Source: a virus. Taken from it: a stretch of DNA of 42,044 nt. The notes beneath the pieces were generated by a model that searched no databases, was not told the origin of the DNA, and saw only the letters and a program-made list of their open reading frames with translations. The stretch is from positions 1-42,044 of IMG/VR virus record IMGVR_UViG_3300033233_000077. One strand, 5' to 3'. Both the position numbers and the translations under genes were made by a program. Of the stretch, positions 2,977 to 28,769 are shown piece by piece (positions within the stretch are counted from its first letter, which is position 1; each line of letters opens with the position of its first letter).

Positions 2977-3333
2977 CAAAGACTACTGATTTTGATGCTG
3001 ATTGCGTTGGCCGTTGCGGCACAGACGCGGGTAAACACGATTGCGGAGATCACGGGCACCGGCGTCGCCGTCCAAATCAATACAACAGGCTCGGCGGTCT
3101 GGGTTGCGATCATGGCCAACGCGACCAACGCAACTACAAATTGCTCAACGACCAGCATGTCTGCATGTCCTCGTGTGGGGGATAGCTCGGTCAGTGCGAC
3201 ACGTGGCATTCCGCTGCTGCCGGGCACGTCCGGGTTTTATCCGGTACCGTTGCCGAACCCAGGATACTCGCTGGCTCAGCTATACGTTTACATTCCCACC
3301 GGCGATAAGATCAACGTGCTTTGGGCGAACTAG
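2974..3333 (+). CDS. Secreted small protein
   Basis: A 119-aa protein beginning with a short signal peptide: basic MQR, then a Leu/Ile/Ala core, with likely cleavage after VAA near residue 16. The mature part has an Asn/Thr-rich section with two cysteines, then a VGDSSVSATRGIPL segment and a Pro/Gly-rich stretch ending in YIPTGDKINVLWA. The end resembles small beta-sandwich domains seen in environmental phages, where they are thought to decorate particles; that is from memory. The start is fixed by the signal peptide and by TATAAT 7 nt upstream; longer upstream starts lack either. It overlaps the convergent gene at 3280-3594 by 54 nt. It is probably a moron-type insertion in the head module. 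Confidence 0.65.
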   Translation: MQRLLILMLIALAVAAQTRVNTIAEITGTGVAVQINTTGSAVWVAIMANATNATTNCSTTSMSACPRVGDSSVSATRGIPLLPGTSGFYPVPLPNPGYSLAQLYVYIPTGDKINVLWAN

Positions 3334-20702: not shown

Positions 20703-20731
20703 TAGATTGTCGCTTGTAGGAGGGCGGCCAC

Positions 20732-20992
20732 ATGGAAAACCTTCACCCTGTTTTTGCACCAATCGTCGCGGGCTGGATTTCAGCGGTAACTCCGGTTGCG
20801 CGAGTATCGAAAGACGTTGACGCCAGCGAGTTCGGGCCGGAAGAATGGCACGAAGAACGGCTGGACCACCACGCGACGGAAGAACGCTGCGCTCATTGCG
20901 TCCGGGAGTTTTATACGGATCGGCTGGTAGCGACGACAGCCGGGAAACTGTGCTTCACCTGCATTCTGGACTACGAAGAAGGGGGCCAATAA
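20732..20992 (+). CDS. Small zinc-ribbon protein
   Basis: An 86-aa acidic protein with two CxxC pairs, CAHC near residue 53 and CFTC near residue 75, forming a likely zinc ribbon. A strong Shine-Dalgarno sequence, AGGAGG, lies 9 nt before the ATG, downstream of the candidate promoter at 20674-20702. It leads the early operon. Its stop overlaps the next start by one base (TAATG). No further function can be read. Confidence 0.6.
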   Translation: MENLHPVFAPIVAGWISAVTPVARVSKDVDASEFGPEEWHEERLDHHATEERCAHCVREFYTDRLVATTAGKLCFTCILDYEEGGQ

Positions 20993-22919: not shown

Positions 22920-23354
22920 ATGACCGAGAAAGCATACCAGGAACTTTGTGCTCGGGCCGGTATCTCACCATTGGCCGGCTCGGGCAAGGCAAAGGCGCAC
23001 AAGTACAACGCGGTGAAAAAGACCGTGGACGGGGTGACGTTCGATTCAGCCGGTGAGGCTCGGGCGTTCGCGTTGCTCAATTTGTGGCATAAGGTCGGGG
23101 CAATCCAGAGCCTGGAGCGGCAACCACGCTACACGCTTATGGATGGCTACGTTGACGCCACGGGGCGCAAGGTGCGAGCTATGGAGTACGTGCCGGACTT
23201 CCGCTTCATCCGCGATAACAAAATCGTTGTGGTGGACTTCAAGGGTATGAAAACGGAAGCGTACAAGCTCAAGGCGAAGCTGTTTCGGCAGCGATACCCG
23301 TATCTGGTGTTTGAAGAGTGGGACGTTACCACGCTGAAGCAAAACGGAGTATAA
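22920..23354 (+). CDS. DUF1064-like nuclease
   Basis: A 144-aa protein matching the DUF1064 pattern, a small PD-(D/E)XK-type phage nuclease thought to act on branched DNA in recombination. Visible parts are TVDGVTFDSAGEARAFALL (the E helix), LERQPRYTL, a strand YVPDFRFI, then KIVVVDFKGMKTEAYKLKAK, which holds the D...D-x-K active-site arrangement. A helix with LFRQRYPYLVF follows. It ends within a candidate promoter (TATAAT 23350-23355) for the structured leader downstream. Confidence 0.8.
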   Translation: MTEKAYQELCARAGISPLAGSGKAKAHKYNAVKKTVDGVTFDSAGEARAFALLNLWHKVGAIQSLERQPRYTLMDGYVDATGRKVRAMEYVPDFRFIRDNKIVVVDFKGMKTEAYKLKAKLFRQRYPYLVFEEWDVTTLKQNGV

Positions 23355-23355
23355 T
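23326..23355 (+). promoter_or_regulatory. Candidate promoter for leader A
   Basis: TTACCA (23326-23331), 18 nt, then TATAAT (23350-23355), overlapping the end of the nuclease gene. Transcription would begin near 23362, exactly at the first hairpin of the leader. Confidence 0.5.
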
Positions 23356-23361
23356 GGGTTT

Positions 23362-23465
23362 GTCGGATTGATCCCCGACGCGGATTGGAATTCACCCGGC
23401 TTGCAGCCTACCTCCTGCGGGCCGGGTCCATTCTCAAAACTTTGAGGTAGAGAGGTAGATCAATG
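23362..23465 (+). promoter_or_regulatory. Structured leader A with SD-complementary loop
   Basis: P1: GTCGG (23362-23366) with CCGAC (23375-23379). P2: GGAAT (23387-23391) with ATTCT (23430-23434), ACCCGGC (23394-23400) with GCCGGGT (23421-23427), and GCAG (23403-23406) with CTGC (23415-23418). The apical loop (23407-23414) holds CTACCTC, the exact complement of GAGGTAG, present twice just before ATG 23463 (23444-23450 and 23452-23458). The second copy is the natural Shine-Dalgarno sequence. A competing hairpin CTCAA/TTGAG (23433-23446) covers the first copy. This suggests translational control by a pseudoknot. Confidence 0.6.
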
Positions 23466-23669
23466 ACAAACGAGACGGCGCAACCTGCGCCAAAAACAGA
23501 ACACGCATCGATACGCGCCGTGCGGGCGTTTGTGCAGAAGCACGCGCCACAACAGAGCCCAAAGGACGTGGAGCTATTCATCAACGACCTGATGCGGCTG
23601 TTGCGCGTCGTGATCCGTGAGGCGGCGCATGAAGTCACCAGCTACATGCTGCAAGGTCTGCGGCGATGA
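23463..23669 (+). CDS. Small protein behind leader A
   Basis: A 68-aa protein, helical and without known motifs. It has an N-terminal Pro/Glu-rich stretch, then a helix with IRAVRAFVQKHAP and a second with IREAAHEVTSYMLQGLRR. It is the first gene after the structured leader and its last 4 nt overlap the DUF1376-like replication gene (ATGA). Leader control of its translation would extend to the replication protein by coupling. The small size suggests a regulator or a leader cistron. Confidence 0.55.
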   Translation: MTNETAQPAPKTEHASIRAVRAFVQKHAPQQSPKDVELFINDLMRLLRVVIREAAHEVTSYMLQGLRR

Positions 23670-24508
23670 AGGCGTACAAGTCTCCAGCGTTTCAATTCTA
23701 CCCGGATTCTTGGCTCTCTTCGATGGACATTACCCTTATGACATCAGCCGAAGAGGGTGCATATATTCGCCTCTTGTGCCATGCTTGGCTTTCTCCAGAT
23801 TGCGGCCTTCCAGCCGACTCCAGAGCGCTTCAGACTTTGTCTAGACTTGGCTCAGCATGGTCAAAAAGCGAAGCCACCATCAGGGCGAAGTTTCGACAGG
23901 AAGACGGGCGCATATACAACGACAGGCTTCTTGCAGAACGTAGCAAACAAGAGGTTTGGCGTGAGAAAAGCAGCGCAGGTGGTAAGCGCTCAGGTGCAAC
24001 CAGACGTGAAGCAAACCACGAACCAAAAACGAAGGGTGGTTCACTTTTGGTTGACGATTTACATGAACCAAATGGCAACTCTTCTTCTCCGTCTCCATTT
24101 CCAGTAAATACAAAAGCAAAAACACACACACCAACAGCGGCAAAAACCGCCGCAGTGTCTGTGATCGATCCGGTGGAAGGTTGGTTCTCTCAGGAGTTCT
24201 GGCCTGTCTATCCCCGGAGAGAGGCGAAGGTCGCAGCCTTGAAAGCAGCTCGGGCTGTGCTGAAAACTCCAGAACTTCGAGCGGCGGCTCTCCGGGCGCT
24301 GACGTTGCAGCTTCCGGACCTGACCAGCAGACCGCCAGACAAACGACCTCACCCGGCGACGTGGATTAGCGGGCGGCGGTGGGAAGATGAACCGGCGTTG
24401 CCGTTTATCTCGATGCCACGATCTAGCGAGAACGGTAACGGGAAAATTGGGTTTGAGGAATCGGTAGAGCGAGAATTACAGAAACGGTTTATGGAAGGGC
24501 GTTTATGA
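23666..24508 (+). CDS. DUF1376-like replication protein
   Basis: A 280-aa protein with an N-terminal DUF1376 pattern (residues 3-70: SPAFQFYPDSWLSS, MTSAEEGAYIRLLCHAW, GLPADSRALQTLSRL), a winged-helix-like domain of phage replication initiators. A low-complexity linker follows (residues ~110-165). A C-terminal part (FWPVYPRREAKVAALKA...PHPATWISGRRWEDE) is seen at the end of many phage replication organisers. It probably recruits the host helicase or primase to the phage origin, as no such enzyme is encoded here. It is coupled to both neighbours by ATGA overlaps. Confidence 0.78.
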   Translation: MKAYKSPAFQFYPDSWLSSMDITLMTSAEEGAYIRLLCHAWLSPDCGLPADSRALQTLSRLGSAWSKSEATIRAKFRQEDGRIYNDRLLAERSKQEVWREKSSAGGKRSGATRREANHEPKTKGGSLLVDDLHEPNGNSSSPSPFPVNTKAKTHTPTAAKTAAVSVIDPVEGWFSQEFWPVYPRREAKVAALKAARAVLKTPELRAAALRALTLQLPDLTSRPPDKRPHPATWISGRRWEDEPALPFISMPRSSENGNGKIGFEESVERELQKRFMEGRL

Positions 24509-25032: not shown

Positions 25033-25475
25033 TCGACCTGAAAGCAGCACGGGAAACCATGCAGGGCTTTAGTGGGATGCCGGGGCTTCCGGACTCGAAA
25101 GAAGCCCTGAAGGCTCGAACAGACTCACTGCGGCAGAACGCCAGAAGCATCGGCCACGCGGCGCGGGTGGTAAAGGCCTTGCGGGAGCAGGAGAAGTTTT
25201 ATCCCAGCGTCCAAGCGATTTACGATATGTGCCAGCAGACACCGGATGACGAGATCATTACCAGCGTGGCGATGGAATGCAACTGGTGCGGCGGCTCCGG
25301 GTACATCATCGTGTACGGGGAGTTTGATACCTCAGCAGCGTGGAAGTGCCGGCACGATGGATCCGCACCGTCAAACGTCGGGCCGGTGATCGTACCAGCC
25401 CTAGCGGCGCATTATCGGCTGGAAGCGGTGGAAGCGGAAGCGCGGCGACTGGCGCGGGCATCGGTGTTCGCGTGA
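25029..25475 (+). CDS. Small protein with CxxC site
   Basis: A 148-aa protein. The N-terminal half is helical (LRQNARSIGHAARVVKALREQ). A central CNWCGGSGY (near residue 84) and a later single Cys (KCRHDG) give a partial zinc site of the 'CxxCxGxG' kind. The C-terminus is a helix, LEAVEAEARRLARA. It sits in the replication operon, coupled on both sides. Function unknown. Confidence 0.5.
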   Translation: MIDLKAARETMQGFSGMPGLPDSKEALKARTDSLRQNARSIGHAARVVKALREQEKFYPSVQAIYDMCQQTPDDEIITSVAMECNWCGGSGYIIVYGEFDTSAAWKCRHDGSAPSNVGPVIVPALAAHYRLEAVEAEARRLARASVFA

Positions 25476-25768
25476 CAGCCGATCTCCAGCGATGCCGGGA
25501 CGAACAGATCCGATGCGTCACGCTGCTACTGGCGGGGCATCCGGAGCAACACGGCCTGCAAATGGGACTGGCGGACTGGATGGCAGAAGAAATTTTGCTA
25601 TTGACGGAGCAGCCCGTAACGCTGCATACTGAAACGGAACGGCAGGGGCTTCGAATCCCTGCTTCGAATGATCCGGGTGGCGTCTCTCCTACAGGCACCG
25701 CCCGGGCATTCGACACCTGTGGAGAGGTGATACATGAAGCGCACACCATTAAAACGCAAAAGCAGTAA
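25472..25768 (+). CDS. Small protein whose 3' end contains leader B
   Basis: A 98-aa reading frame that starts at GTG 25472, overlapping the previous stop (GTGA). The first ~50 residues (CVTLLLAGHPEQHGLQMGLADWMAEEILLL) look like a normal helical protein. The last ~45 residues are read through the structured element at 25637-25736 and look unlike protein, so selection on RNA structure may dominate there. The frame overlaps the next gene by 35 nt. The longer start at 25340 is not supported. Confidence 0.5.
   Translation: MTADLQRCRDEQIRCVTLLLAGHPEQHGLQMGLADWMAEEILLLTEQPVTLHTETERQGLRIPASNDPGGVSPTGTARAFDTCGEVIHEAHTIKTQKQ
25601..25630 (+). promoter_or_regulatory. Candidate promoter for leader B
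   Basis: TTGACG (25601-25606), 18 nt, then CATACT (25625-25630). Transcription would start near 25637, giving a leader of about 97 nt, almost the same as leader A. Confidence 0.5.
25637..25736 (+). promoter_or_regulatory. Structured leader B with SD-complementary loop
   Basis: P1: GCAGGG (25642-25647) with CCCTGC (25657-25662). P2: TCGAATG (25664-25670) with CATTCGA (25707-25713), then CCGGGTGG (25673-25680) with CCGCCCGG (25698-25705). The loop holds CTCTCC (25684-25689) and ACAGG (25691-25695), which pair with CCTGTGGAGAG (25716-25726) over 11 bp with one bulged T. That target includes the Shine-Dalgarno sequence of ATG 25734. It has the same architecture as leader A with different bases. 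Confidence 0.6.
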
Positions 25769-26568: not shown

Positions 26569-26830
26569 AACCACGTACTACATCCTGCCGATGCGCGACA
26601 TACGCACCGTTGGCGGCGCAGTGTGTGCAGATCCGTGCGAACTCGATCAGGCTCAGTTCTGGGGGGTGTACAAACTGGAAAGCGACGGATGCTCAGAGTG
26701 GGTATCTGACCATCCGTCGCAAAATGAAGCTGACGCGGCTATAGACCGCATTCAGCCAGCAGCGCGTCCGGAACCTGCCTGCGATACTTCCGGACGAGCG
26801 TCTGAGCCAGAGCAGCCTGTTTTGGCGTGA
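26558..26830 (+). CDS. Small protein convergent with the SNF2 gene
   Basis: A 90-aa protein starting MLIETTYYILPM. The first 60 residues look like a small alpha/beta domain with three cysteines; the tail is Pro/Glu-rich. Its last 92 nt overlap the end of the minus-strand helicase gene, so both strands code here. It is the final gene of the forward early operon. No homolog is recognised. Confidence 0.45.
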   Translation: MLIETTYYILPMRDIRTVGGAVCADPCELDQAQFWGVYKLESDGCSEWVSDHPSQNEADAAIDRIQPAARPEPACDTSGRASEPEQPVLA

Positions 26831-28769
26831 GGCGTCCGCAATCGGCAAGGCTGTGACCGATCATGCCGTCTAACCGGGAGAACCCAACACCGTTAAGCGT
26901 CTTTGCTTTGTCGGGGTCCAGATCCGCAACCAGCTTGAGCGCTTGGTGTATCGCTGCAATCTGCGAAGCCGTCAGCGTCTCTGCGATCTTGGCGTACTTC
27001 GTCCGGGGCGTGTCCTGCGTTGCGGCTTCCGACCGTCCGGGAACTATCGGCGCTTCCATCAGCTCGACTTGCTCTGGTGTCAGCCGTTCCGGGTGCTCAC
27101 GGTCCAGTGCTGAATCAATGACATTCTGCTTTGCCACCAGCCGTTTCGCCATCGTTGCCGCGATTGAACCCTGTATCACCAGATGCTCACAGAGCACGCT
27201 ATTACGCTGGCCGATGCGGTTACAACGATCTTCAGCCTGCGACATGTTGCCGGGCACCCAGTCGAGTTCTACAAACACAACATGCCACGCTGCGGTGAGG
27301 GTAATCCCGACACCGGCAGACTGAATACCGCCGACGAATACCCGGCAGTCCGGATCGTTCTGGAAGCGGTCAGACTCGGCCTGACGCTCCATGATGGGAG
27401 TTTTTTGCGTGATCGAAGCGGTTCCGATACCTTCCTCAGCCAGTGCGGAAAGCATTCCGGCCGCCACGTCGCCGTGGTGACAAAACACAACGACTTTGTG
27501 CGAATCGTCAGCCTTTAGCGCGGTGAGAACGTGCTCAACCGCGTGCGGTAACGTCGCCATCGCTGTTTCATGCCGCAGCCGGGCCATCTCGGTAAACGCA
27601 AACGATGCGCCTTTCTTCAGGGCTGCGACTGCGGCGGTGTACGCTTCCTCTGATTCCGCCTTTGCAAGCTCCACGGCGGCGCGCAGGCGCTCCAGTTCTT
27701 CTTCGTGGGACTCTGCGGCATCCGACTCCTCCGCAATCGCGTCAGACGCCGAATCCGCCTCAAGTTCGATGACCACGCGCCGTTTCGCCGGCAGTTCGGT
27801 CAAAACCTGCGTTTTAGTGCGGCGGATCATGATCGACCCGCGAAGCTCCCGCTGCAGTTCGTCCAGGTTCGTAGCGCCGTTTTGGTCGTATCCTGCGCCT
27901 GGGTAACCGAACGATCCGGTGAACTTCTTCGCGTAGACGTAGAAGCTTTTGAATATCTCGTGATCCGGGGCCAGCCAGTGAAACAAACCGAAACCCTCAC
28001 TCGGGCGGTTTGGTATCGGCGTGCCAGTCATGCCGACCTGCAAACGTCCGCGAACACCGGGCGACGGCTCGACCTTCTGGCGTTTGGCGGTGTAGGGGTC
28101 CATGCCGAAGATTGCCAGCGTCCGCTTTGATTCCCGGTTCTTGAGGTAGTGAGCCTCGTCAATTGCCACCAGGTCCCACAGTTCGGCCTGAATCTTCGCA
28201 GCGTGCTTCGTCGCAATGTCAAAGTTCATGATCACGATATCGGCGTAGTTCCCGGGCCAGCTCTGGCCGGAAGCAATGCCGATGCGGAACTTACGCACCA
28301 GCCATTTGTTGAGTTCGCGCATCCAGTTCTGTTTCAGGGTGGCGGGACAAACGATCAAAACCCGTTTCACGTCGGGGCGGGCGTTGATCATGCCGATGAC
28401 CTGAATAGTTTTCCCGAGTCCCATATCGTCCCCAAACAGGACGTTTCCGCGCTTCAGGGCGCTGGCGATCCCGGCTTTCTGGAAGGGCAGGTAGTCCAGA
28501 CCATCGGGGGCCGGAAGCTCAACGTCGGCGGATGCGGCGCGGGATTCGTCCACCAGGGCGGCGCGTTCTTTGCCGATGCGCTCAAACTCAGCCCGCTTCG
28601 CAAGTTGCGCGGCTGGGTCCATGAGCAGCTTAGCCACGTCCTCCCGGCTGGTCCACCAGTGCCGCTGCTGAGGGTCCCACCGAAACCCGGCAGACTTTGC
28701 GTGCTCCCGCTGCGCGTAGGGGATTGTGACGATCCAGCGGATGCCGTCACGGTTAACGGGAAACGTCAT
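26739..28769 (-). CDS. SNF2-family DNA helicase
   Basis: A 676-aa SF2 helicase of the SNF2 group. Residues 16-45 (YAQREHAKSAGFRWDPQQRHWW) form a small DUF5710/HARP-like module seen in phage SNF2 proteins. Motif I is DDMGLGKT at 114-121, motif II is DEAH at 204-207, motif III is in GMTGTPIPNR. A coiled, Glu/Ala-rich insert lies around residues 340-400. Motifs V and VI are GVGITLTAAWHVVFVE and QAEDRCNRIGQ. It remodels or unwinds DNA with ATP; in phages such enzymes are linked with replication and recombination. It is the last gene of a minus-strand operon and its start overlaps the previous stop by 4 nt. Confidence 0.92.
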   Translation of the reverse strand: MTFPVNRDGIRWIVTIPYAQREHAKSAGFRWDPQQRHWWTSREDVAKLLMDPAAQLAKRAEFERIGKERAALVDESRAASADVELPAPDGLDYLPFQKAGIASALKRGNVLFGDDMGLGKTIQVIGMINARPDVKRVLIVCPATLKQNWMRELNKWLVRKFRIGIASGQSWPGNYADIVIMNFDIATKHAAKIQAELWDLVAIDEAHYLKNRESKRTLAIFGMDPYTAKRQKVEPSPGVRGRLQVGMTGTPIPNRPSEGFGLFHWLAPDHEIFKSFYVYAKKFTGSFGYPGAGYDQNGATNLDELQRELRGSIMIRRTKTQVLTELPAKRRVVIELEADSASDAIAEESDAAESHEEELERLRAAVELAKAESEEAYTAAVAALKKGASFAFTEMARLRHETAMATLPHAVEHVLTALKADDSHKVVVFCHHGDVAAGMLSALAEEGIGTASITQKTPIMERQAESDRFQNDPDCRVFVGGIQSAGVGITLTAAWHVVFVELDWVPGNMSQAEDRCNRIGQRNSVLCEHLVIQGSIAATMAKRLVAKQNVIDSALDREHPERLTPEQVELMEAPIVPGRSEAATQDTPRTKYAKIAETLTASQIAAIHQALKLVADLDPDKAKTLNGVGFSRLDGMIGHSLADCGRLTPKQAALAQTLVRKYRRQVPDALLAECGL

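Follow-up and report, generated by a model that had tools for sequence, protein, structure and literature searches.

Can the leader of a phage gene carry, in a hairpin loop, an antisense copy of that gene's own ribosome-binding site (RBS), and is such a pairing preserved in relatives? Two sites in the 42,044-base IMG/VR contig IMGVR_UViG_3300033233_000077, from an uncultivated phage, raise this question; the whole of this record is referred to as the window. Control of phage early replication genes has mostly been described via proteins. A sequence-only reading of the window had proposed a structured leader, present in two covarying copies (leaders A and B), whose loop pairs with the ribosome site of the gene behind it. 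This description proved strong for leaders of the A type, whereas the pairing of the leader B loop with the Shine-Dalgarno sequence (SD) was not kept in relatives. Two early genes of the phage appear to begin with folded RNA leaders of this kind, leader A being the better supported. The loop of leader A is an exact complement of its own gene's RBS. Loop and site have been replaced together in leader A relatives, which argues that the pairing matters, and it probably controls the timing of replication-protein synthesis.

Layout of leaders A and B

Leader A spans positions 23350-23465, between an upstream DUF1064 (Holliday-junction-resolvase-like) gene and a 68-aa ORF (Table 1). The stem of its second hairpin (HP2), formed by 23394-23406 and 23415-23427, closes an 8-nt loop, CCTACCTC, at 23407-23414. 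This loop matches GAGGTAG twice in the downstream target, and the second target copy contains the SD. The -10 box was found at the same place in A-type relatives, as TATAAT, TATAGT, TACAAT or TAGAAT, and variants of the first hairpin (HP1) occurred in L044 and L066b (L numbers denote related contigs, L066b the second leader of L066). Taken by itself, the fold energy of leader A was unexceptional (z = -1.35), so support for this leader comes from covariation. Just inside the coding region that follows, a small hairpin GGCGCA-ACC-UGCGCC was seen at 23477-23491 of the window. L047, L066/L093 and L066b each have a hairpin at this position, where the protein is Ala/Pro-rich, the stems being different ones in L066 and L066b.

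The coordinates and parts that the sequence-only reading gave for leader B, a promoter-like site followed by two hairpins, were recovered as described. The near-identical promoter-to-ATG distances that it had pointed out were also borne out, the -10 box and the ATG being 109 nt apart in leader B and 113 nt in leader A. The promoter pattern of leader B has a single match in the window, and 7 of 100 shuffles hold one; relatives have TTGACC...CATGAT/CATACT at this site. HP1 pairs GCAGGG (25642-25647) with CCCTGC (25657-25662). HP2 is made of a 7-bp lower stem (25664-25670/25707-25713), a 9-bp middle stem including G-U pairs (25672-25680/25698-25706) and a 4-bp apical stem, with the apical loop CTCCTAC at 25686-25692. 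The loop stretch CTCTCCTACAGG (CTCTCC-T-ACAGG, 25684-25695) pairs over 11 bp, with one bulged T, with CCTGTGGAGAG (25716-25726) at the HNH ribosome site. Folding gave a minimum free energy of -50.7 kcal/mol for leader B and -37.6 +/- 3.9 for its dinucleotide shuffles (z = -3.4; 1 of 200 shuffles as good), and the loop-target duplex, at -18.0 kcal/mol, was equalled by 0 of 5000 shuffled loops. The shuffle controls thus upheld the 11-bp pairing claimed earlier for this phage, and the fold of the leader with it.

A tRNA-like reading of leader B HP1 (GGGGCTTCGAATCCC) was rejected, ARAGORN finding no tRNA. The promoter spacer of leader B holds an inverted repeat, GCAGC-N7-GCTGC (25609-25625), which reads GCACC-N7-GGTGC in relatives; it has changed symmetrically, with the symmetry kept, and is a possible operator.

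Table 1. Positions of the leader elements and adjoining genes in the window.
Feature	Position	Strand	Sequence or content	Basis or remark
Leader A, -10 box	23350-23355	+	TATAAT	Overlaps stop codon of DUF1064 gene
Leader A, HP1	23362-23379	+	GTCGG-ATTGATCC-CCGAC	Nearly invariant in most A-type leaders
Leader A, HP2	23385-23430	+	TGG/CCA base, 5-nt bulge, 13-bp stem	
Leader A, tandem target	23444-23459	+	GAGGTAGA-GAGGTAGA	Each copy complementary to 7 nt of loop
Genes behind leader A	23463-24508	+	68-aa ORF, 23463-23669; DUF1376 primosomal-like gene, 23666-24508	
Small ORF reading through leader B	25472-25768	+	3' part a frameshifted extension	Comparison with homologs
Leader B, promoter-like site	25601-25630	+	TTGACG-18-CATACT	Sequence; kept in relatives
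Leader B, -35-like element	25601-25606	+	TTGACG	Followed by 18-nt spacer
Leader B, -10-like element	25625-25630	+	CATACT	
Leader B, HP1	25641-25663	+	GGCAGGGG-CTTCGAA-TCCCTGCT	Folding
Leader B, HP2	25664-25713	+		Folding; compensatory changes
Leader B, HP3	25714-25729	+	CACCT-GTGGAG-AGGTG, SD in loop	Folding; absent from the sequence-only reading
HNH-type gene, 115 aa	25734-26081	+		Weak matches to DUF968 and HNH endonuclease families

Leader B in related contigs

Searches with two proteins (HNH and the 148-aa product encoded upstream) and with a DNA pattern located the B-type contigs, and pairs were counted in six distinct leaders whose stem segments had been delimited and joined by hand. All cells were paired (100%), two-sided changes were found at 8 of 18 stem pairs (6 of the 13 counted in HP2 and 2 of 5 in HP3), and 0 of 500 shuffles were as good. 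HP1 was nearly identical in relatives, where it is coding too, and had a different sequence in L055. Judged by these comparisons, the hairpins of leader B are real RNA features. HNH homologs at 30-40% identity showed no similar leader by eye.

Whereas HP2 and HP3 covary in homologs, the match between loop and SD, for which the sequence-only reading had likewise expected covariation, was at chance level: shuffled-loop p values were 0.11 in L004, 0.42 in L006, 0.14 in L008, 0.08 in L053 and 0.59 in L055. The loop itself, CUCCUAC, was invariant across all B-type leaders. Leader B has an A-like layout, but with its SD held in the HP3 loop, and its own 11-bp loop-SD helix, significant here and not kept in relatives at large, is seemingly confined to this phage and its nearest relatives (L007).

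Leader B had also been placed inside the 3' end of another reading frame whose protein looked degraded there. The frame is real. In L004, L006 and L053 it ends ...RQGLRIPASE-stop, with the stop within the 5' arm of HP2, and L055 stops at the same point after a tail of its own. In the window and in L007 this stop has apparently been removed by deletion of 1 nt, which makes the "degraded" tail in the window frameshifted sequence. Since HP3 as a whole and the greater part of HP2 lie beyond the coding frame in these relatives, the covariation of the two hairpins is not explained by coding constraint.

The gene behind leader B varies, being the HNH gene in the window and a 779- or 896-aa helicase-methyltransferase-like gene (function read from sequence) in L053 and L055. 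The earlier assignment of the two leaders to replication and recombination genes holds broadly for leader A, with DUF1064 before it and DUF1376 after it; leader B precedes these other genes.

Covariation and loop codes of A-type leaders

Searching viral contigs for CGGAYTGATCCCCGAC, the HP1 sequence, gave 43 stretches. Beyond the contigs already known, this search contributed four leaders (L066, L088, L093 and L098), the remainder being apparently unrelated by eye. When seven of the leaders were made into a covariance model, a search with it added another leader in L066 (L066b), ~340 bases from the first. The two are arranged in tandem at 3172-3280 and 2828-2934 on the minus strand and have different codes, each matched to its own target; the second combines the loop AUUCACUCC with GGAGUGA twice. 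The L066 leaders precede a 75-aa ORF and a 188-aa endonuclease-like gene, and the N-termini of the two look alike. The L088 leader stands directly before a replication-protein-like gene.

Six distinct A-type leaders kept a 12-bp HP2 and a loop of 8-9 nt, each loop matching two tandem copies that overlap the SD. Five distinct loop codes were found among them, L042 and L066 sharing one, and this code, GGGCAGA, is carried on different stems in L042 and in L066/L098. The length of the A-type stem (12-13 bp) and that of the linker are fixed, and the stem sequence turns over. Close relatives that match the window in promoter and HP1, and whose downstream protein is 97-99% identical, carry another HP2 and another target in place of those seen here. 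L042/L043, which have promoter and HP1 in common with the window and neighbouring proteins 95-99% identical, carry the loop ATCTGCCC and the target GGGCAGA twice, with two-sided changes at 5 of 7 loop-target pairs relative to the window.

Two earlier proposals fared poorly. A single ligand, protein or temperature acting on both leaders found no support: loop codes differ between A and B and between the two L066 leaders. The case for A and B as covarying paralogs is weak: they have a common layout with no detectable sequence likeness, and the A-type model scored leader B at only 7.5 bits (301-base search, filters off).

For pair counting, five gap-free segments (stem, loop, stem, copy 1 and copy 2) were aligned across the six A-type leaders, the segments being delimited and joined by hand after the folds had been seen. 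Standard pairs filled 96.7% of cells with copy 1 and 97.5% with copy 2, and two-sided changes were found at 17 of 20 pairs (11 of 12 for the stem alone). None of 500 shuffles reached any of the five pairing measures, sliding the partners by 1-3 columns lowered pairing to 40-57%, and in a swap matrix the true assignment of loops to targets ranked first of 120 permutations. Members had been chosen via HP1 similarity or neighbouring proteins; as neither loop nor target entered into that choice, the loop-target test avoids circularity. A geometry-only scan of six records on both strands (stem of at least 8 bp, loop of 7-9, a 7-nt complement within 45 nt) picked up the leader in all six, with a single further hit; in the window it returned leader A alone, and randomised windows gave 0-1. 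In the six records, the A-type target word had a plausible SD-to-start spacing at the leader only, other copies looking like chance occurrences inside genes, which favours self-regulation as the simplest reading.

These results bear on whether the element acts as DNA, the repeats being protein-bound operator or origin sites (direct repeats and one inverted copy) and the hairpins incidental. Leader A does precede replication genes and has short direct repeats, and a shift in operator specificity could change all copies together. However, an operator needs no 12-bp stem in which 11 of 12 pairs show two-sided changes and which holds one of the copies precisely within an 8-nt loop. The direct copies always lie at the SD just 5' of the ATG, and contig L066 has two leaders before different genes. 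We therefore regard this explanation as very improbable.

The conservation of HP1 sequence in most A-type leaders, next to an HP2 and a target that are not conserved, would suit a translational operator in which a phage or host protein reads HP1 and stabilises the HP2-target fold, the RNA pairing being the effector arm. This conservation is, however, inflated by the fact that most members were found by searching with the HP1 sequence; HP1 differs in L044, in L066b and between A and B, and no candidate binding protein was identified. Control by such a protein seems improbable to us, and it would be compatible with, rather than exclusive of, the cis switch set out below.

Candidate modes of action and known systems

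The comparisons show a conserved promoter-like site, HP1, HP2, a loop-target complementarity with compensatory change and, in A-type leaders, a tandem target. Leaders A and B would both be regulatory 5' parts of early phage transcripts. With a probability of roughly 0.55, we propose that leader A is a cis switch, in which a pseudoknot between loop and RBS sets the translation of the replication-module genes. Downstream of the promoter, HP1 would lie near the 5' end of the RNA, followed by HP2, the linker, the tandem target with the SD at the copy junction, and the ATG. The HP2 loop, as an antisense copy of its own gene's ribosome site, would pair in cis over ~7 bp with the tandem target at the SD; the H-type pseudoknot so formed would stack on the 12-bp stem, and this pairing would set how often ribosomes start on the replication-module genes. 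Pairing with the second target copy would cover the SD; pairing with the first would leave it mostly free and disturb a weak hairpin between the linker and that copy, and the duplicate copies may provide a two-state switch. The A-type dimensions (~1 unpaired 5' loop nucleotide, a 7-bp loop-target helix, no 3' gap, a 12-13-bp stem and a 13-19-nt return strand) fit an H-type pseudoknot. From these features we infer that the leader acts on translation, that pairing is intramolecular and which of the two states is ON.

The gap between HP2 and the target is 2-7 nt in leader B and L088. In leader B, so short a strand could not run back along a 16-bp stem, which makes a cis pseudoknot implausible unless HP2 opens, and much the same applies to L088. 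This geometry may leave room for trans kissing or for a partly opening leader. As it does not allow an easy cis helix, it agrees with a trans self-antisense mode, C4-like or plasmid-RNAI-like, in which the loop of a small HP1-HP2 RNA would kiss the tandem target of other leader copies. The result would be a dosage-dependent shut-off, or the exclusion of phages with the same code. We consider such a mode, and such an outcome, possible but somewhat doubtful. The diversification of codes as cassettes between the window and L042/L043, the recurrence of GGGCAGA on different stems and the two differently coded leaders of contig L066 would all suit it, and the near-complete code replacement between the window and L042 is also to be expected of a trans-acting specificity system. 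C4 offers a precedent, its loops covering a ribosome site with a specificity that differs between P1 and P7 (PMC5320573). On the other hand, the stretch from HP2 to the target showed no terminator-like U tract, no tyrosine integrase turned up in 11 records (many of them fragments), which so gave no sign of lysogeny, the C4 model found no match, and mosaic exchange of leaders could swap codes without selection. We also think it unlikely that A-type leaders are a coded form of self-recognition, in which each phage lineage would have a loop-target word of its own and its leader RNA would silence the replication genes only of co-infecting phages with the same word, as an RNA-only system of exclusion or dosage unrelated to C4. 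The A-type family represents a clean test case for a cis pseudoknot as opposed to self-antisense control.

C4 RNA lies upstream of its target on one transcript and is cut by RNase P into a small RNA that acts in trans. In P1 and P7, this folded phage RNA has loops antisense to a ribosome site, and a few loop bases set the specificity (PMC5320573). A loop complementary to the ribosome site of the target gene is likewise found in A-type leaders and, for leader B, in this phage and its nearest relatives. The anatomy of C4, with three stems and antisense loops a' and b', differs from the arrangement found here, where two hairpins precede the target and one antisense loop faces two copies of one site. 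The C4 model (RF01695) had no hit at its gathering score, nor around leader A or B when E was allowed to reach 5, nor in the record with E up to 10.

In repZ-type leaders, a hairpin loop pairs with a site beside the SD of the replication initiator gene. Plasmid rep leaders of this kind (IncI repZ, IncB, IncL/M; works cited in PMC10724649) combine a loop-RBS pseudoknot with a counter-transcribed antisense RNAI. Similarly, loop-RBS complementarity is found upstream of a replication gene at leader A (the 68-aa ORF, then the DUF1376 gene) and in L088. Here, however, the target is duplicated and the loop code turns over almost completely between relatives. As for the leader peptide of the repZ type, none was noted in leader A, and leader B relatives have the small ORF ending inside HP2. 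In logic C4 comes closest to the leaders found here, and repZ-type plasmid leaders come closest as regards a replication gene under a loop-RBS pseudoknot.

The preQ1, SAM-II and SAM/SAH riboswitches and rpsO use H-type pseudoknots that sequester the SD. The A-type leaders resemble them in a loop that pairs with the downstream SD region, a short first loop and an A-containing return strand, and differ in having a longer stem of 12 bp, no aptamer core conserved in either stem or loop, a tandem target and no Rfam match. An Rfam scan with 4227 models (gathering score, and E up to 5 around each leader) found nothing near a curated cut-off. DNA searches of isolate phages with a half of the window or either leader gave no match; in GTDB genomes, neither a search with the DUF1064 protein nor one with a 24-base A-type pattern found a relative or a match, respectively. 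No comparable phage leader was found in the open-licence literature, which is weak evidence given that scope. The leader family is known from IMG/VR contigs alone, reached via one exact pattern and protein neighbours. Within these bounds, A-type leaders appear to form a new phage RNA family, outside Rfam, with a loop-RBS helix like that of known RBS-masking RNAs, in which loop, stem and duplicated ribosome-site target change almost completely and the pairing is kept. The natural loop-RBS pairs with their different codes represent a ready set for translation control.

Elsewhere in the window, the gene at 20732 has its RBS within a hairpin, GUCGCUU-GUAGGA-GGGCGGC (20709-20728), the stem of which changes to GUAGC/GCUAC in L042 and GUGGC/GCUAC in L043. 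Its SD word GUAGGAG is complementary to the invariant B-type loop CUCCUAC, and the site at 20716 is a possible trans target of the leader B loop; GTAGGAG occurs 3 times in the window where base composition predicts 3.9, so this site is only a lead. A gene for an SNF2-type helicase (PF00176) lies at 26739-28769 on the minus strand, inside an early region that is otherwise on the plus strand.
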